Shown here: positions 10,496 to 21,311 of the stretch, piece after piece
Layout of the letters: each line of letters starts with the position of its first letter
How positions within the stretch are numbered: position 1 is the first letter of the stretch
DNA from: a virus
Virus record (IMG/VR): IMGVR_UViG_3300034374_000432
Location: 1-24,880 of that record
Strand: one strand, 5' to 3'
Length of the DNA stretch: 24,880 bases
Position numbers and translations under genes: made by a program
Notes under the pieces: generated by a model
The model's input: only the letters and a program-made list of their open reading frames with translations
Told to the model about the DNA's origin: nothing
Database searches by the model: none

Positions 10496-10718
10496 GCCAT
10501 AGCATTGATGGTAAGGTGTATCTGTAATTTGTATTACGATACCCTAAAGATTTAAGTTCTTCCTGAATTGCTTTATCCGCTTCATTACGTGCTGCAATAG
10601 CATCTCGCAACCCAGCAGTTTTTCTGTCACGATACTCTTTACGCAATTCAACAAGGCGTTGTTCTGTAGCTTTAATTTCATCCAATAAAGCATCAAATTC
10701 CAGTCTGTCATCATTCAT
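10482..10718 (-). CDS. Small coiled-coil hypothetical protein
   Basis: Encodes 78 residues. Residues 1-55 are a charged, heptad-like helix (LDEIKATEQRLVELRKEYR) expected to form a coiled coil; the end is aromatic and basic (SLGYRNTNYRYTLPSMLWRD). Shine-Dalgarno GAGGAG 7 bases before ATG 10718, inside the end of the nuclease gene it overlaps by 8 bases. It also overlaps endonuclease I by 14 bases. The position between two nucleases suggests an accessory role in DNA processing; family not recognised. Confidence 0.65.
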   Translation of the reverse strand: MNDDRLEFDALLDEIKATEQRLVELRKEYRDRKTAGLRDAIAARNEADKAIQEELKSLGYRNTNYRYTLPSMLWRDIA

Positions 10719-11571
10719 CTTTATACTCCTCTTTTAGTTCAATGTATTGCACAATTTTAGGAAACTTAGCCTGTGACTTTACCTGTTCTCGTTCAATTAG
10801 ATTAGGCCAACAAGTATTTTTAAAATCACAGAATGTACAGTGTTTATTAAGTACTTTGTTTCCTGTTTCCTTTCCCCTGAAGGTTTCAGTCTCAGGCTCA
10901 AAGCATCTTTTAAATTCGTTAGCCTTAACCGTTTTGACTGCTTTCTTTATATTGGTTATTTCTTTTTCAATGTCAATACCTGTAGCTGGTACATATTTAA
11001 ATTTTCCATTGGCTTTGTTTACTACCCACCAGCCGCCAGCTTTTTTACCAGAAGCCTTTGCATAACCAGCGAGTTGTCCTATGTAGCCAAAGCCATCACC
11101 GCTGGCAAGGGTGCTGTAGGATTCAAACTTGTTTCTGTATGACCAGTCTGAAGCTGATTTAATATCATCAACTGCACCATCAAGGATAAGGTCATAAGAA
11201 CCAGAAATGCTATCGTCACCAACATCAAGAGTAACTTTGTCCGTGTCTTCATACTTTACTCCCGCCTCTGTTAATAGTCCTTTGAAGACAGCTTCAACGA
11301 TGTCTCCAATCATCATGTTCATTACGAAGTTATTTGATTTAGTTTGCGCAGCCTCTGGCTTGTTTTTTTCAAACCATAGTTGACAGGTTGGCCTACCAAC
11401 ATTAGACATACGCAAACTAAATTCTTTTTTCTCACGCTTACCGAATTGGCGGCGTAAGGCATCCATTATGTCAGTGCCAATTTGTTTAATAGTTTCTTCT
11501 GAAATTTCACTATTACCATTGGCAGCGTCACTCATGTACTTATGCAACGCCAATTCAGCAGGGTGATTCAT
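10711..11571 (-). CDS. PD-(D/E)XK nuclease with probable Fe-S cluster (Cas4/RecB-like)
   Basis: Encodes 286 residues. The nuclease core shows D127 (GSYDLIL), D136-x-K138 (VDDIKSA) and the Q166-x3-Y170 motif (GQLAGY) typical of RecB/Cas4-type exonucleases. Four cysteines are placed like an AddB/Cas4 iron-staple: C63 near the N-terminus (RPTCQLWFEK) and C245, C248, C254 near the C-terminus (HCTFCDFKNTCWP). Such enzymes resect DNA ends in recombination and can degrade host DNA. The likely partner is the adjacent upstream ssDNA-binding-like protein, joined by a TAATG junction. In T7-like phages this slot between polymerase and late genes holds the gp6 exonuclease, so a functional substitute is plausible. 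Confidence 0.85.
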   Translation of the reverse strand: MNHPAELALHKYMSDAANGNSEISEETIKQIGTDIMDALRRQFGKREKKEFSLRMSNVGRPTCQLWFEKNKPEAAQTKSNNFVMNMMIGDIVEAVFKGLLTEAGVKYEDTDKVTLDVGDDSISGSYDLILDGAVDDIKSASDWSYRNKFESYSTLASGDGFGYIGQLAGYAKASGKKAGGWWVVNKANGKFKYVPATGIDIEKEITNIKKAVKTVKANEFKRCFEPETETFRGKETGNKVLNKHCTFCDFKNTCWPNLIEREQVKSQAKFPKIVQYIELKEEYKDE

Positions 11572-12506
11572 TATGCTGCTCCTTCTTCCAGTTCAATGTC
11601 AATAAAATCTTCAACAATATCAACATCTTCTTCAGACATAGCTGCTTCTTGACGCTGACTTGTTTTAGCATCCCACTCTTTGTAGATATAGTCATTGAAG
11701 TTTTTTACCCAAGCAAGAAAGTTTCCAAACTGCTCGTGATCTTCCGCTTCAATCTCGTGTGATGCTTTCAGGTTAGCTTTACAAATTGGTGTAAAGTAAC
11801 TTGATCCATTCGGAAGTTTGTTTTCTTTTGGATCAGAGAAAACAATTTCGTGTTCTGGTGGAACAAGTTCCAGTTTAGTAAACTTACCAAACTCTTCACC
11901 TATAATCTTAAAGGCTTCCTTGTTGTCAATTTCCCATATGAAAGGTGTTGTGACATTATCAACAGGTTTACCCTGCGAATCAACAGCATCCTTCATAGTG
12001 ACAATACCAAAGATAATACGAACACGTTTAATCTGACGAATTAAATCCTGCATATCTGCTGGTAGTGCTTTGAAATCCTCAATCCATCCAGAAGGTTTTC
12101 CACAGTTAAATTTACCTGTGTTGTCTTTAAGATCATCATCAAGTGATATATCCATTATTGTACGATGGAATGTACCCTTTGGCTCATTAGGCTTTGGGTT
12201 TTTATTGGCAACGTATCTACGATACTGAAAGCGTTGCATAAAAGGACGAACACTTATGTTCTTGCTGTAATAGAATGTTGAATTTTCACCTTCTACTACT
12301 TCAAGACGATATGTGCCACCCTCAACAACTTCCACATTTGTTAGTTTACCGTTAATTTCAGCTTGACCCATCACAGGTTGATGCCATAGACGAAGACGAT
12401 TTAATGTACTGGTCTTCTTAGTACCCTTCGCTCCATCAGCAGCAAATCCCATTAACTTGTTCATTGCTGCATAATTATCGGTGTGTATTGTTACAAGATC
12501 ATTCAT
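11571..12506 (-). CDS. Probable single-stranded DNA-binding protein
   Basis: Encodes 311 residues. There is no diagnostic motif, but two features suggest an SSB: a beta-rich middle (GTYRLEVVEGENSTFYY, VRPFMQRFQYRRYV) with many aromatic and basic residues, and a very acidic C-terminal tail (EEDVDIVEDFIDIELEEGAA) like those T7 gp2.5 and bacterial SSBs use to contact replication partners. It lies directly between the DNA polymerase and the exonuclease, the position of SSB in many replication operons. Shine-Dalgarno AAAGGAG sits before ATG 12506, 39 bases after the polymerase stop. A recombination-annealing protein is the main alternative. Confidence 0.5.
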   Translation of the reverse strand: MNDLVTIHTDNYAAMNKLMGFAADGAKGTKKTSTLNRLRLWHQPVMGQAEINGKLTNVEVVEGGTYRLEVVEGENSTFYYSKNISVRPFMQRFQYRRYVANKNPKPNEPKGTFHRTIMDISLDDDLKDNTGKFNCGKPSGWIEDFKALPADMQDLIRQIKRVRIIFGIVTMKDAVDSQGKPVDNVTTPFIWEIDNKEAFKIIGEEFGKFTKLELVPPEHEIVFSDPKENKLPNGSSYFTPICKANLKASHEIEAEDHEQFGNFLAWVKNFNDYIYKEWDAKTSQRQEAAMSEEDVDIVEDFIDIELEEGAA

Positions 12507-12545: not shown

Positions 12546-14588
12546 TCACGCTACATCCTTAGTGTCAAGCCAATTCGGTCCTATTTTTGCTTCTAATAAA
12601 AGAGGAACATTTAACTGTATTTTAAACTTAGAATTAACTAAGTCTGTTAAGTTATTGTTTGTCTCATTTATTATTGCAATTACCTTCTGCTCTTCATCTG
12701 GATGAATATCTATAACAATAGAATCGTGTACAGTATTCACAATGCAACTATGCATATTTTCTAGTTGCTTGTCAATATATAAAAGTGTTAATGGCACAAT
12801 ATCTGCTGTTGCAAATGACTGCACAGGGTAGTTTTTTATCTGTGTAAAGTTTGTAACTGTACCATTTTGTCTTCTGGTTACGTTAGGAAAATAAAACTGC
12901 CTACCAGAAGGTGTAGTTATCATATTAGTTGTTACAGCTTCTTTAGCCAGTCTGGTATGCCAAGCTGCGACCCCTTTGTACTTTTCTGTAAAGTGTTCGT
13001 AGTATGCCGCTTCTGCTGGTGTTCTGCCGAAACCTGTCGCACCGTAGAGTGGCGCGAATGTATGTGCTTTCGCATCCTGTCTACTCGTAGGTTGACCAGC
13101 ATCACTAATAACTTTAGCGGTGTATGAGTGTACATCAAATCCAGTAGATACTTCTTCAATAGCAACTCCATCTTGTGATAAAAATGCGGCGGCACGAAAC
13201 TCAAGCTGGGCAAAGTCAGCTTCCATTATCTTACCACCCTCAAATCGTGACACAAATACTTTCTTAACAGGGAATGTGCCGCCACGAGGCATATTCTGCA
13301 TATTAGGATCAGCACCAGAAAAGCGACCAGTAGCTGTGCGATGCTGTAATAGACGGACGTGTAACTTACCATCCGCTTTTGTGAAGGTTTCAATGCCTTC
13401 AACAAACGAAGATAAATACGTATCTAAAGCACTAAGGCGTTTTACTTTATGTAAAAAACTCTTTGCTTCATCCATATTCTTTTCTTTTGCAAAACTCTCA
13501 AGAATGTCTAGGTTTGTTTTGGATGTAGTAAATCCATGCGCACTTATCCATTTAGCTGTAGGTGCAGAGAAACGAAGACCAGCAATTTCATTAGTAGGTA
13601 TAAAGTGAAACCCAACACCAGCACAATCCTTGCAAGTAGAAGGTTTAGCATATGGTGTACCATTCTTTTTCATCTTATGAACTTTACCACGACCATAACA
13701 GCTAGGGCATTGCTTTGCTTTTGTTTTAAAAACAAGTTCAGAATTTTCCCTTACAGTATCTTTGAATACATCTTTTTTCATGTAAGGATCAAAGCAATTC
13801 TGCCACATAGCTTTATCAATAGGCTTACGACTATAAATAACTTGAGATAACTGCTCTGGGCTATTTAAGTTTACTGGCGTATCCCCCATCAAATCAGACA
13901 CCTGCTTTTGTAGTTCGTTTGTAAGTTGAATCTTCTCTTGTTCAAATTCTGTACGAACAGATGCTAATGCTTCTTTGTCTACAGAGAAACCACGCTGATA
14001 TATACGTGCGAGGCAAACAGCTACCTGATTAGTCAGTATAACTGTTTCCATTAACCCTGCATCCTTTTCTGTATTAAGACGATAATACAATTTATCAGCT
14101 AATTGCTGAGTAGCATGAAGGTCAGCAGATAGATATTCACATAACTCATTGTGAGGTATATCACGAGTACTATAACCCTTCTTGAAGTATTCTTTTAGTG
14201 TGTCTTGCTTTTTAGTATCCAGTTCATAGCGTTCTGCACAAGCCTCAAGAGATAATGGTTCTTTTTGTCCACGTTGTAGTACATACTCTCCTAACATTGT
14301 GTCAAACACAGGCCCATCATATTTAAATCCAGATTCCCACAGCCACATCAAATCGTAGGCGGCATTGTGTGCGATGATGATAGTAGCTTGGTCAAGCCAC
14401 TTTTGAAGCAGGTTGTGTCCGTGGTATGTATGCTCACGCTCACTGTGGTCAAAGGTAATCAGGTCTTCCTGCCCTTGGTCAGTAAGCACACCTACCATAA
14501 CCAATGTATTCTCTGGCTCAAATGGGTCAAGGTGCATCTTACCATCACGTTGTGTTACTGTATTTTCTATATCAAGTGTTAATTTCAT
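12546..14588 (-). CDS. polA: Family A DNA polymerase with 3'-5' exonuclease and DnaJ-type zinc insertion
   Basis: Encodes 680 residues and replicates the phage genome. Exonuclease domain (1-~200): D6-x-E8 (LTLDIEN), N75-x3-D79 (HNAAYD), Y152-x3-D156. Polymerase domain (~330-680): motif A around D458 (EADFAQLEFR), motif B R503-x3-K507-x3-F511-x3-Y515-G, motif C H621-D622-S623. Between them (290-328) is an insertion with C294-x2-C297-x-G-x-G and C319-x2-C322-x-G-x-G, the zinc-binding repeat of DnaJ chaperones. I recall a partial DnaJ domain in the polymerase as a noted feature of phage HMO-2011. F511 is at the place of E. coli F762, and the residue there affects discrimination against dideoxynucleotides. 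Shine-Dalgarno AAGGAGAAG precedes ATG 14588, which overlaps the HNH gene by 17 bases. Confidence 0.96.
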   Translation of the reverse strand: MKLTLDIENTVTQRDGKMHLDPFEPENTLVMVGVLTDQGQEDLITFDHSEREHTYHGHNLLQKWLDQATIIIAHNAAYDLMWLWESGFKYDGPVFDTMLGEYVLQRGQKEPLSLEACAERYELDTKKQDTLKEYFKKGYSTRDIPHNELCEYLSADLHATQQLADKLYYRLNTEKDAGLMETVILTNQVAVCLARIYQRGFSVDKEALASVRTEFEQEKIQLTNELQKQVSDLMGDTPVNLNSPEQLSQVIYSRKPIDKAMWQNCFDPYMKKDVFKDTVRENSELVFKTKAKQCPSCYGRGKVHKMKKNGTPYAKPSTCKDCAGVGFHFIPTNEIAGLRFSAPTAKWISAHGFTTSKTNLDILESFAKEKNMDEAKSFLHKVKRLSALDTYLSSFVEGIETFTKADGKLHVRLLQHRTATGRFSGADPNMQNMPRGGTFPVKKVFVSRFEGGKIMEADFAQLEFRAAAFLSQDGVAIEEVSTGFDVHSYTAKVISDAGQPTSRQDAKAHTFAPLYGATGFGRTPAEAAYYEHFTEKYKGVAAWHTRLAKEAVTTNMITTPSGRQFYFPNVTRRQNGTVTNFTQIKNYPVQSFATADIVPLTLLYIDKQLENMHSCIVNTVHDSIVIDIHPDEEQKVIAIINETNNNLTDLVNSKFKIQLNVPLLLEAKIGPNWLDTKDVA

Positions 14589-19174: not shown

Positions 19175-19228
19175 TTATAGTAAAGCAAGTAGGGGTAACA
19201 CTACAAATATAAATACTACAACATCCAT
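19175..19228 (-). CDS. Candidate 17-residue hydrophobic micro-ORF
   Basis: ATG at 19228 has GGGAG about 8 bases upstream and encodes MDVVVFIFVVLPLLALL, nearly all hydrophobic, stopping just before the Shine-Dalgarno of the next gene. It overlaps the last four codons of the upstream gene in another frame and fills the 53-base gap. It could be a tiny membrane peptide or a leader for translation coupling; 17 codons can also be open by chance. Confidence 0.25.
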   Translation of the reverse strand: MDVVVFIFVVLPLLALL

Positions 19229-19713
19229 TGTGGCATCTCCCTTCCTTTGTTGTATCGTGCAAAAGCACTTTTGTCAACCTTGTAGAACCTGCGATAAGCA
19301 ATGATAGGCCAGTTCTCATCCGTCTTTAGGTCATCGTGTCCACTGAAACACTGTGGATGTGGTGTCATAAAGTTGGTTGTGTCAGGTATTTTGCAGACAC
19401 CAAACTCCAATGCATGATAATGCTTGCCAGCACCATGCTGTTTGCCATAGCGGTGTGTATACTCACGAAGCATTGCATCATATAGCCGGAAGGCATAGCC
19501 GTAGTTACGCTGGTTGTCCATTGCCCACAGTGTGCAAGGGTGCTTCTGATGCACAGGCTTGTATAAACCACGAGCCTCTGCATACTCAGGTGCATGATGC
19601 CACAGTGCAGTACATAGCATCTGTGCTTCTTCCAATGGCATCTTGACAATATGCTGGTCACACAGTGACTTAGCGATAGCATCGGGGTGATGCTCAATTA
19701 AAAACCTGTTCAT
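19216..19713 (-). CDS. Putative pyrimidine-dimer glycosylase-like protein
   Basis: Encodes 165 residues. The blocks CDQHIVKMPLEEAQMLCTALW, LYKPVHQKHPCTLWAMDNQRNYGYAF and REYTHRYGKQHGA match a phage family usually annotated as pyrimidine dimer DNA glycosylase (Pyr_excise), which would repair UV damage; this is by recalled pattern only. Many conserved His, Cys and Tyr residues suggest metal or nucleic acid binding. Start ATG 19713 overlaps the upstream TGA and has GGGAG 8 bases upstream. The first eight residues (MNRFLIEH) are identical to the start of the upstream gene product. Confidence 0.6.
   Translation of the reverse strand: MNRFLIEHHPDAIAKSLCDQHIVKMPLEEAQMLCTALWHHAPEYAEARGLYKPVHQKHPCTLWAMDNQRNYGYAFRLYDAMLREYTHRYGKQHGAGKHYHALEFGVCKIPDTTNFMTPHPQCFSGHDDLKTDENWPIIAYRRFYKVDKSAFARYNKGREMPQWML
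19249..19277 (-). promoter_or_regulatory. Promoter-like sequence inside coding region
   Basis: TTGACA (19277-19272) and TACAAC (19254-19249) are 17 bases apart on the - strand, with the small inverted repeat GTGC-TTTT-GCAC in the spacer. It lies near the 3' end of the preceding gene and could drive the 88-residue gene. The coding context makes chance a real alternative. Confidence 0.3.
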
Positions 19714-19889
19714 GTGTCATTCTCCCACTTTATGTTGAGTTCAATTTCATTCCACGCAGATTCATAGGCAGCATCCCAATTAGTATGGTATCCTCTGTCT
19801 ACGTCTTCGTCAGCCATTAAGATTGCCCAATGGTTAATGCAAGGCTCGTGGTCTAGTGGTAACTCATGCTCAATTAGAAATCTATTCAT
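19710..19889 (-). CDS. Small acidic hypothetical protein (WAIL type A)
   Basis: Encodes 59 residues from ATG 19889, which overlaps the upstream TGA (ATGA) and has GAGGAC 8 bases upstream; an in-frame TTG two codons earlier is less likely. It starts MNRFLIEHELPLDHEPCINH, then HWAILMADEDVD and an aromatic, acidic end. The first eight residues equal those of the following gene product, and the WAIL-x-A-D/E-E block resembles that of the gene at 20052-20210. No known family. It ends within GAGAATGACACATGA, which carries the next start. Confidence 0.6.
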   Translation of the reverse strand: MNRFLIEHELPLDHEPCINHWAILMADEDVDRGYHTNWDAAYESAWNEIELNIKWENDT

Positions 19890-20065
19890 CTGCAATCGTC
19901 CTCATCAAATTTACAACGTGTTGTGTAGTATGCCATCAACAGTGCGGCAACCTCTGGGAATGTTTCCCAATCAGGTCTGCTACAATTCCACTGATGGTCA
20001 ATCTCGCTGTCAAGCGCAACCAGTATGGCGTTGACTTGTTTCTTTGGTAAGTTAAGTGTTATCAT
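19886..20065 (-). CDS. Small hypothetical protein
   Basis: Encodes 59 residues from ATG 20065, 6 bases after GGAGA; the ATG two codons earlier is too close to the Shine-Dalgarno. Sequence MITLNLPKKQVNAILVALDS suggests a beta strand followed by a helix; the end is acidic with two Cys (TRCKFDEDDCR). It overlaps the upstream gene by 14 bases and the downstream one by 4. No family recognised. Confidence 0.55.
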   Translation of the reverse strand: MITLNLPKKQVNAILVALDSEIDHQWNCSRPDWETFPEVAALLMAYYTTRCKFDEDDCR

Positions 20066-20210
20066 CTTCATTCTCCTCTGCGTCTAAGATAGCCCAATAT
20101 TGGTCAAAGGTATACACTTGTGTATCTGTTTCAACTTCCATTGGGTATGCACCGAAATGGGCATAGTGTTCATACACATATTCTTTGATGGCTTCATAGT
20201 CCACGTTCAT
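20052..20210 (-). CDS. Small acidic hypothetical protein (WAIL type B)
   Basis: Encodes 52 residues from ATG 20210 (AGGAG 7-8 bases upstream; upstream in-frame Met codons are too close to it). Tyr-rich start (MNVDYEAIKEYVYEHYAHFG), then YWAILDAEENEDDNT. The last codons, GAGGAGAATGAAGATG, hold the Shine-Dalgarno and start of the next gene. The WAIL-x-A-E-E segment resembles that of the gene at 19710-19889, suggesting related modules. Function unknown. Confidence 0.55.
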   Translation of the reverse strand: MNVDYEAIKEYVYEHYAHFGAYPMEVETDTQVYTFDQYWAILDAEENEDDNT

Positions 20211-20364
20211 CCTCATTCTCCTTCGGTAAGTATACATCTACATCACAGCCACAGTTAGGGCAGTGCAAGTTAGTCACCATTGCATATGTATCTTCACATC
20301 CATATGCTTCAGCATCATGGTCACATCCCCATATCAGTTCTGTATTACAGTGCCAACAGTTCAT
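20194..20364 (-). CDS. Zinc-ribbon microprotein
   Basis: A 56-codon frame from ATG 20364 (inside an ATGA overlap with the upstream gene, GAGGAG upstream) to TGA 20194. The protein begins MNCWHCNTELIWGCDHD and later has LHCPNCGCDVDVY: two CxxC knuckles (C3/C6 and C35/C38) about 30 residues apart, the spacing of a zinc ribbon. It ends in KENEDERGL, whose codons form the next Shine-Dalgarno. Small phage zinc ribbons often bind nucleic acid or host RNA polymerase, but no target is visible here. Confidence 0.65.
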   Translation of the reverse strand: MNCWHCNTELIWGCDHDAEAYGCEDTYAMVTNLHCPNCGCDVDVYLPKENEDERGL

Positions 20365-20501
20365 GTGTCATTCTCCTCATCAAAGTAAAAGAATATACGG
20401 CACTCATCACCCATGTCATCAGCAAGAAACCAACCTGATGGTTCAGCATTTTCTTTTGCAGGGCAAGTCAGCATCCATTCCCAAAACTCTTGTCGTGTCA
20501 T
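20361..20501 (-). CDS. 46-residue acidic hypothetical protein
   Basis: ATG 20501 overlaps the upstream TGA (ATGA) and has GGGAG 7 bases upstream. The protein starts MTRQEFWEWMLTCPAKENAE and ends in IFFYFDEENDT; it is Trp/Phe-rich and acidic, with two Cys. The final codons GAT-GAG-GAG-AAT-GAC-ACA-TGA supply the next gene's Shine-Dalgarno and ATG. No family recognised; perfect nesting at both ends supports real translation. Confidence 0.6.
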   Translation of the reverse strand: MTRQEFWEWMLTCPAKENAEPSGWFLADDMGDECRIFFYFDEENDT

Positions 20502-20707
20502 CGTATAACTCCCAATACCCAATTCTCTGCACAGTTTTCGGCATACACCTCACTGTGTCCTTTGATGTTGCGTTCCTCAATGATAGCACCATCCTGCATC
20601 ATGTACACAGTATAGCTACCATCAGGCTCTACAAAGACAGTCGCTTTGCGGTATGCACCCATGCCACGACTGCAATCTTCATCACTATAAAACTCATGCA
20701 ACAGCAT
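20498..20707 (-). CDS. Small hypothetical protein
   Basis: Encodes 69 residues from ATG 20707 (GGAGA 6 bases upstream, inside the preceding gene). Sequence MLLHEFYSDEDCSRGMGAYR then beta-like YTVYMMQDGAIIEERNI suggests a compact alpha/beta or beta-hairpin fold. It overlaps the preceding gene by 14 and the following by 4 bases. No family recognised. Confidence 0.6.
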   Translation of the reverse strand: MLLHEFYSDEDCSRGMGAYRKATVFVEPDGSYTVYMMQDGAIIEERNIKGHSEVYAENCAENWVLGVIR

Positions 20708-21200
20708 CTTCATTCTCCTCTGCGTGTTCAGCTATGTATTCACTAATACCAAACTCATCATCCAGTTCGGGGTAATCTTCCACTACACTTTCCACATCAG
20801 TAGTACACCAGTCATCACCATCGGTATATTCACCAATGTATCCCCAACCTTCATCAAGGTAACGTGCTGTCACCTCAAAGCCCATGTCTACCAGCTTGTC
20901 ATAGATAGGCATAGGTGGTGACCATGCAGTGTAGAAGTACAGTTGTAATGTGTTAGCGTCAAAGCGAGTGCAGTGTGATTCATACACATCCCACTTTGTA
21001 CCCCAATTCTGTAGACGCCACTCGTACCAGCCTGTCACACCATTCTCATCAAATCCTGCTGTGCCTTCAAGTTCCTTTGGCATAGGGATAAGTGTCTGGC
21101 ACAGTGGCGTGTCATCTGTGTTCATGATGTTGTAAATCATGTCAATCTGCTGGCTGTCAGCGTGTGACAGGATTACTCTGTTGTCTGTATGATTAGGCAT
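20694..21200 (-). CDS. Api92-like protein with ferredoxin-like fold (DUF1281-type)
   Basis: Encodes 168 residues. The block GWYEWRLQNWGTKWDVYES followed by LQLYFYTAWSPPMPIYDKL is the signature of Api92/YubB-like phage and plasmid proteins, which also start MPNxxxNR as here. The C-terminus is very acidic and ends AEENEDAVA, overlapping the next gene's Shine-Dalgarno. Shine-Dalgarno AAGGAG precedes ATG 21200. The family is frequent in accessory regions of mobile elements; no molecular role is established to my knowledge. Confidence 0.8.
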   Translation of the reverse strand: MPNHTDNRVILSHADSQQIDMIYNIMNTDDTPLCQTLIPMPKELEGTAGFDENGVTGWYEWRLQNWGTKWDVYESHCTRFDANTLQLYFYTAWSPPMPIYDKLVDMGFEVTARYLDEGWGYIGEYTDGDDWCTTDVESVVEDYPELDDEFGISEYIAEHAEENEDAVA

Positions 21201-21295: not shown

Positions 21296-21311
21296 TGTCG
21301 CACCTGCTACA
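21296..21311. promoter_or_regulatory. 16-bp palindrome copy 3 (one mismatch)
   Basis: TGTCGCACCTGCTACA, the only copy with an arm mismatch (A to C). It fits exactly between the stop at 21313 and the ATG at 21294, so on the mRNA it covers the ribosome-binding region (AGGTG) of the 30-residue membrane protein. Confidence 0.65.

Follow-up and report, generated by a model that had tools for sequence, protein, structure and literature searches.

Small genes of an HMO-2011-type phage probably form an array of single-gene cassettes exchanged at Shine-Dalgarno-to-ATG joints

Two models have been put forward for the mosaic genomes of phages. Short conserved boundary sequences have been described between the modules of lambdoid phages (Susskind and Botstein 1978; Clark et al. 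2001, for HK620; both as cited in PMC3233612 and PMC3029335). As those two papers present the models, boundary sequences (Clark et al.) are set against illegitimate recombination followed by selection. The argument between short boundary homology and random joins filtered by selection is still open, and most mosaic borders are said to lack boundary sequences. Genes 67 and 68 of mycobacteriophage Island3 have their C-terminal 18 residues in common (PMC3029335). Cluster K mycobacteriophages carry Start-Associated Sequences (SAS), which have a fixed 13-nt consensus and are well conserved at bases outside the Shine-Dalgarno sequence (SD) (PMC3203893). Phage Rad52-like recombinases carry out homologous recombination of short, diverged sequence, and have been proposed as a route to mosaics at limited homology (PMC3945230).

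The stretch of DNA that we analyzed (the window) is a whole IMG/VR record of 24,880 bases. Its genes mark it as a fragment of the genome of an HMO-2011-type phage. A DnaJ-like CXXCXGXG insert is present in the polymerase (12546-14588), as CPSCYGRG and CKDCAGVG, and a zinc insert of this kind is typical of the polymerases of HMO-2011-type phages (PMC9038755). The order integrase, primase, helicase, polymerase agrees with that of Puniceispirillum phage HMO-2011. Genes were called with one simple in-house script. Eight overlapping genes run in a single direction on the minus strand from 21200 to 19216, with overlaps, in order from the first gene (A168) to the last (B165), of 14, 4, 4, 11, 14, 4 and 4 nt. 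Taking all the evidence below as a whole, the best explanation, and one we consider likely, is that this chain is a single-gene cassette array in the early (replication-side) operon of HMO-2011-type phages.

The chain begins with A168 (20694-21200, 168 aa), which has a weak DUF1281_C (Api92-like) domain, and ends with B165 (19216-19713, 165 aa), which has a Pyr_excise domain at residues 1-91. Between them lie six small cassettes: s71 (20498-20713, 71 aa, or 69 aa from a better-spaced ATG at 20707), s46 (20361-20501, 46 aa), s56zn (20194-20364, 56 aa), s52 (20052-20210, 50 to 52 aa, starting at GTG 20204 or ATG 20210), s61 (19886-20071, 59 to 61 aa, starting at 20065 or 20071) and s59 (19710-19889, 59 aa). 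Domain searches gave weak hints to the functions of the small proteins; s56zn has two CxxC pairs and is zinc-ribbon-like, under the Pfam cut-off. Start calls at the joints of such a chain are unreliable, and annotators should treat them with caution. The chain is not the only part of the window with SDs inside an upstream gene; the starts at 10718, 9392 and 7202 are among the others preceded by one, so gene overlap as such is habitual in this phage.

A preliminary description of this DNA had drawn attention to five C-terminal tails rich in E, N and D, and all five are present on the minus strand: AEENEDAVA at the end of A168 (stop at 20694), DEENDT of s46 (20361), KENEDERGL of s56zn (20194), AEENEDDNT of s52 (20052) and KWENDT of s59 (19710). 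It had also proposed that each of these gene ends serves the following gene as its ribosome-binding site, and the GGAG of the next gene does lie inside each of the five tails, where the overlaps are 14, 4, 11, 14 and 4 nt. The two remaining junctions (s71>s46 and s61>s59) have a 4-nt overlap each and other upstream tails, VLGVIR and FDEDDCR. Of 639 cases in which GGAG lies inside an upstream gene, 410 have the frame xxG-GAG, 166 have GGA-G and 63 have xGG-AG. The third frame is rare because, at the commonest spacing from the first G of GGAG to the ATG (11 nt), it coincides with that of the next gene, so that both genes would be fused. The xxG-GAG frame gives Glu-rich tails that run a few codons into the next gene, where AAT-GAx encodes Asn-Asp/Glu; the GGA-G frame gives a Gly-Glu/Asp tail, and the stop is often the TGA of GGAGAATGA. 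The E/N/D tails would thus be mainly a by-product of the frame in which the SD is read. For annotators, the caution is that the neighbor, and not function, may set the last residues of such small proteins.

The preliminary description also reported an identical pair of 20-mers. The repeat is real and its second copy lies at 20705-20724 as reported, but the first copy occupies 20063-20082, one base from the position given (20062). The exact repeat extends to 21 nt: the box ACGCAGAGGAGAATGAAGATG lies on the minus strand at 20705-20725, at the A168>s71 junction, and includes the SD and the s71 start, and the identical 21 nt lie on the same strand at 20063-20083, at the s52>s61 junction. Dinucleotide shuffles of the window gave no matches to the 20-mer repeat, even when 3 mismatches were allowed. 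We also used a harder null, in which the 37 minus-strand start regions of the window were shuffled column by column with the SD and ATG retained. The longest shared run in 3000 such trials had a mean of 8.8 nt and a maximum of 15, compared with the 21 observed. A second repeated box, the 18-nt GGAGAATGACACATGAAC, had not been listed before; it lies on the minus strand at 20359-20376 (s46>s56zn) and at 19708-19725 (s59>B165).

We scanned IMG/VR for both boxes. In all related contigs outside the lineage of the window, the 19-nt core of the 20-mer was confined to the A168>s71 junction, and the s52>s61 copy was restricted to the window's lineage. We therefore rejected the 20-mer as a general joint. 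The 18-mer was present twice in the window's lineage; elsewhere it occurred at single sites, and the context of several of these was unrelated. In other phages, GCAGAGGAGAATGA is part of the own ends of both A168 and s52, so the 20-mer repeat may be a shared box or may be partly a coincidence of similar tails.

To compare the chain with its relatives, we collected loci from viral contigs by means of three protein anchors, together with three isolates. Called genes were grouped in families and near-identical loci were merged, which left 124 non-redundant loci; 1834 unique junctions were compared, and because the loci are related by descent, counts of turnover and of junctions are not independent. 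Comparison of gene content between the junctions, which the preliminary description had recommended, gave 32 arrangements in 34 zones from A168 to D281, with 1 to 13 genes in between and with joint sequence shared; a uniform gene order without junction conservation was not seen. In contrast, the adjacent order of integrase, primase and helicase was nearly invariant, with INT followed by one family (at the primase position) in 68 of 72 unique junctions.

Individual genes of the chain had many different neighbors in the relatives. There were 36 families upstream and 35 downstream of A168, 39 upstream of B165 and 14 downstream of s56zn. Single genes at approximately 85-99% nucleotide identity adjoined differing neighbors. 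A copy of s52 that is 98.6% identical lies upstream of A168 in one relative (L007), and s71 is joined directly to s61 in two (L089 and L123), to s56zn in another (L098) and to B165 in other contigs; f15, f32 and others also follow s71. Isolate HMO-2011 has the same architecture with another gene order, in which s61 is directly upstream of A168, and neighbors differed across the isolates HMO-2011, CRP-1 and CRP-345. Two copies of any one family were found in only 4 of the 124 loci. Within the window there was no paralogy among the cassettes, except for a shared start of 8 residues.

The borders of the exchanged segments were concentrated at gene starts and stops. Ends of blocks with at least 85% identity fell between -18 and +6 of a start in 40% of cases, compared with 6.7% in the null, and between -18 and +6 of a stop in 26%, compared with about 7%. 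Conserved genes separated by variable spacers would mimic this pattern, so we repeated the test on overlapping joints only. Where the upstream neighbor differed, identity was 0.9 at the start codon and fell to background by -18. Where the downstream neighbor differed, identity was approximately 0.9 up to -18 before the stop and approximately 0.8 from there to the stop, and dropped to background right after it. These profiles place the switch in the stretch from the SD to the overlap, and the borders of the swaps thus lie in the SD-to-ATG joint of roughly 20 nt. As in phage mosaics, near-identical segments stand beside unrelated ones, with borders at gene ends.

We asked how much sequence is shared at the joints themselves. 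A junction with a known left relative and a known right relative was treated as a hybrid joint (n = 63, from 42 family pairs). The best crossover touched the region from -18 to +3 in 58 of these. For the null, real unrelated SD-containing joints were scored in the same way with simulated matched divergence, which replaced an earlier null based on exact runs. The stretch matched by both relatives was 6.3 nt, or 5.9 nt when counted by event, compared with a null of 2.16 nt (99.9th percentile, 3.16), a comparison that treats alike a recombinant and an ancestor of both "parents", so that the longer stretch may partly be an inherited joint. If the junction is the ancestor, then the shared stretch needs no targeting, and targeting by homology is for this reason a step that we infer.

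Joints between different genes also shared long runs. For junctions in which both flanking families differed, there were 103 shared runs of at least 13 nt (30 expected from column shuffles) and 29 of at least 16 nt (4.5 expected). The suggestion that the genes are joined at a shared junction therefore holds in that unrelated genes share junction sequence above the column-shuffle null, but not in the sense of a universal 20-mer. The motif GGAGA[AT]TGA was found at 15.6% of GGAG starts at overlapping joints and at 9.5% of intergenic ones, a moderate, 1.6-fold difference. The commonest 9-mers at joints were GGAGAATGA (32 of 381) and GGAGATTGA (24 of 381), and the others were diverse. Outside the SD and ATG, the average similarity of unrelated joints was slightly above background.

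In two cases the joint has moved together with a small piece of a neighboring gene. The first 8 codons of s59 (MNRFLIEH) are the same as the start of B165, while the usual start in the s59 family is M(x)ELPLDHEP; the head of s59 is a graft from B165. The s61>s59 junction (19880-19912, minus strand, 33 nt) has a 94% match in two relatives (L145 and L143), where s59 ends with the FDEDDCR of s61 and the same junction leads into another gene (f164); one junction of 32 nt is common to two phages, in which it connects different genes. The s59 tail in L145 and L143 is a graft from s61.

A separate observation concerns the interior of B165. Its first ~33 codons (19616-19713, the Pyr_excise-like N-terminus) recur at 81-89% nucleotide identity in L005, L014, L020, L025 and L038, and the remainder of the genes with this start aligns poorly. 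Recurrence of the N-terminus suggests that exchange occurs within genes too.

Neighbor turnover, the position of the breakpoints, the shared joint sequence and the grafted heads and tails were observed directly, and it is probable in our judgment that the chain is an array of single-gene cassettes exchanged by crossovers in the SD-to-ATG joint. Each cassette would extend from its own ATG, usually with its own SD, to the next SD or just past it, and crossovers between phages inside the ~20-nt joint would swap cassettes. After a crossover there, the new neighbor would come with a ribosome-binding site that works, and in one of the two frames in which the upstream protein terminates. Homology in the joint (SD, flanking purines and ATG) would help to target the crossover, selection for intact, translated genes would remove the remaining joins, and translation along the chain would be coupled. 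A further reading, which we offer tentatively, is that the joint, and not the gene, may be the lasting unit. Boxes of SD and ATG would persist while the flanking genes are replaced. As natural adaptors, these boxes would both target recombination and secure translation and, in two of three frames, termination, with the adjoining gene setting the C-terminal residues of the small proteins.

The same breakpoint pattern could arise by random illegitimate recombination, with selection keeping the joins after which both genes are still whole and translated; the joint would then have no targeting role, and its similarity would reflect SD constraint and shared descent. This is the default model where no boundary sequence is visible (PMC3233612, PMC3029335), and it agrees with the near-background similarity of unrelated joints outside the SD and ATG and with a joint motif enriched just 1.6-fold over intergenic starts. 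It does not predict a shared stretch at hybrid joints that is ~3 times the null from real SD-containing joints, the excess of runs of at least 16 nt (29 compared with 4.5) common to joints that differ on both sides, or heads and tails of ~8 codons copied along with the joint, and we regard it as possible but somewhat doubtful. Ordinary translational coupling alone, with SDs in tails arising from small overlapping genes and the 20-mer from a coincidence of two AEENE tails, seems improbable. It draws on the SD-in-tail overlaps elsewhere in the window, on GCAGAGGAGAATGA in the conserved ends of A168 and of s52, and on the reading frame, which accounts for most tails; it leaves neighbor turnover with breakpoints in the joint and grafted heads and tails without explanation, and the 21-nt match lies beyond all 3000 column shuffles. 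For the array as a whole it is contradicted, and for the exact 20-mer it may still hold.

Growth of the cluster by duplication or by exchange of cassettes had been suggested. Exchange is well supported by the neighbor swaps and by breakpoints at the SD and ATG. Tandem duplication of one gene-plus-joint unit could account for the repeats in the window (the 21-nt box, the 18-nt box and MNRFLIEH, each present twice), yet the cassette proteins lack paralogy and so few loci (4 of 124) hold two copies of a family that we rejected this origin as very unlikely. With three silent differences over their 24 nt, the MNRFLIEH starts are not a recent copy made in place. Because the relatives are mostly metagenome contigs, chimeric assembly might have produced apparent swaps, but the isolates HMO-2011, CRP-1 and CRP-345 vary in their neighbors as well and many joins recur in separate contigs; we rejected this explanation, which has almost no chance of being correct. 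Integron-like cassettes were rejected too, as the joints are purine-rich and, as read from the sequence, without dyads, and the integrase is of the phage tyrosine type.

The recombination genes in the window encode a Cas4-like exonuclease, endonuclease VII and endonuclease I. There was no match to Redbeta, RecT or Erf, and no dedicated annealing recombinase, among the window proteins searched. A conserved 311-aa protein with an acidic C-terminus (11571-12506) adjoins the Cas4-like exonuclease and had no family match in our searches. Its predicted model is weak (pLDDT 62), with a weak match to phage SSBs, and we do not claim it as an annealing protein.

There were two other features of the window. 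A 16-nt dyad, TGTAGCANNTGCTACA, occurs 12 times in the window (16786, 18838, 21296, 21597, 22369, 22702, 23106, 23559, 23843, 24074, 24238 and 24772), mostly between early genes and never inside the cassette chain; the copy at 21296 is a variant with C in the left arm. This dyad was absent from the relatives checked. Several relatives have multi-copy dyads of their own: TGTCAC-4-GTGACA 8 times in L126, GTCCAA-2-TTGGAC 7 times in L170 and L048, GTGTTA-2-TAACAC 6 times in L028, another 5 times in L089, and others in L005 and L132. The pattern resembles that of a repressor system with many operators and with a specificity that varies from one relative to another. The second feature is another variable spot, from the end of D281 to the start of INT (17971 in the window), with 21 downstream families. 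In relatives such as L089 and L123, D281 ends in AAGGAGTTGATTGCAGCATG (tail KELIAA) and varied small genes follow before the integrase; L007 also has this variable spot.

Several properties of the array can be compared with the systems described above. It differs from integrons, as no attC-type inverted repeats were found at the chain joints and the window integrase is not an integron integrase. Like SAS, it has a repeated AGGAG-containing sequence just before the starts of unrelated genes (PMC3203893). Unlike SAS, only GGAGA[AT]TGA recurs, at ~15% of GGAG joints; the 9-mers at joints are diverse, and one fixed consensus, conserved outside the SD and placed before many genes, was not found. 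Mosaics at limited homology are what the Rad52-like route would yield; the window proteins searched gave no match to Redbeta, RecT or Erf, and the candidates among them are the three nucleases named above and the 311-aa protein with its weak SSB-like fold. As in Island3 genes 67 and 68, a 3' end is repeated in neighboring genes, which was interpreted there as a scar of recombination (PMC3029335). Island3 is a single case, whereas here tail and head grafts occur more than once and the joint also has an SD.

The closest parallel is the lambdoid boundary model as it is summarized in PMC3233612 and PMC3029335. In both, the units of exchange end at gene boundaries, a short boundary sequence is shared and the genomes are mosaic. 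A border sequence common to different neighbors, beyond what function needs, was found here too, of moderate size and with ambiguous polarity of ancestor and recombinant. Unlike in that model, the boundary in the array coincides with the SD-to-ATG overlap, and each swap can therefore alter the final residues of the upstream protein. The array differs also in its units, which are individual small genes, and in its setting, a common group of marine phages that allows many family pairs to be tested at once. Numerous natural joins are available here within a single group of phages, and the bases shared at each join can be measured.
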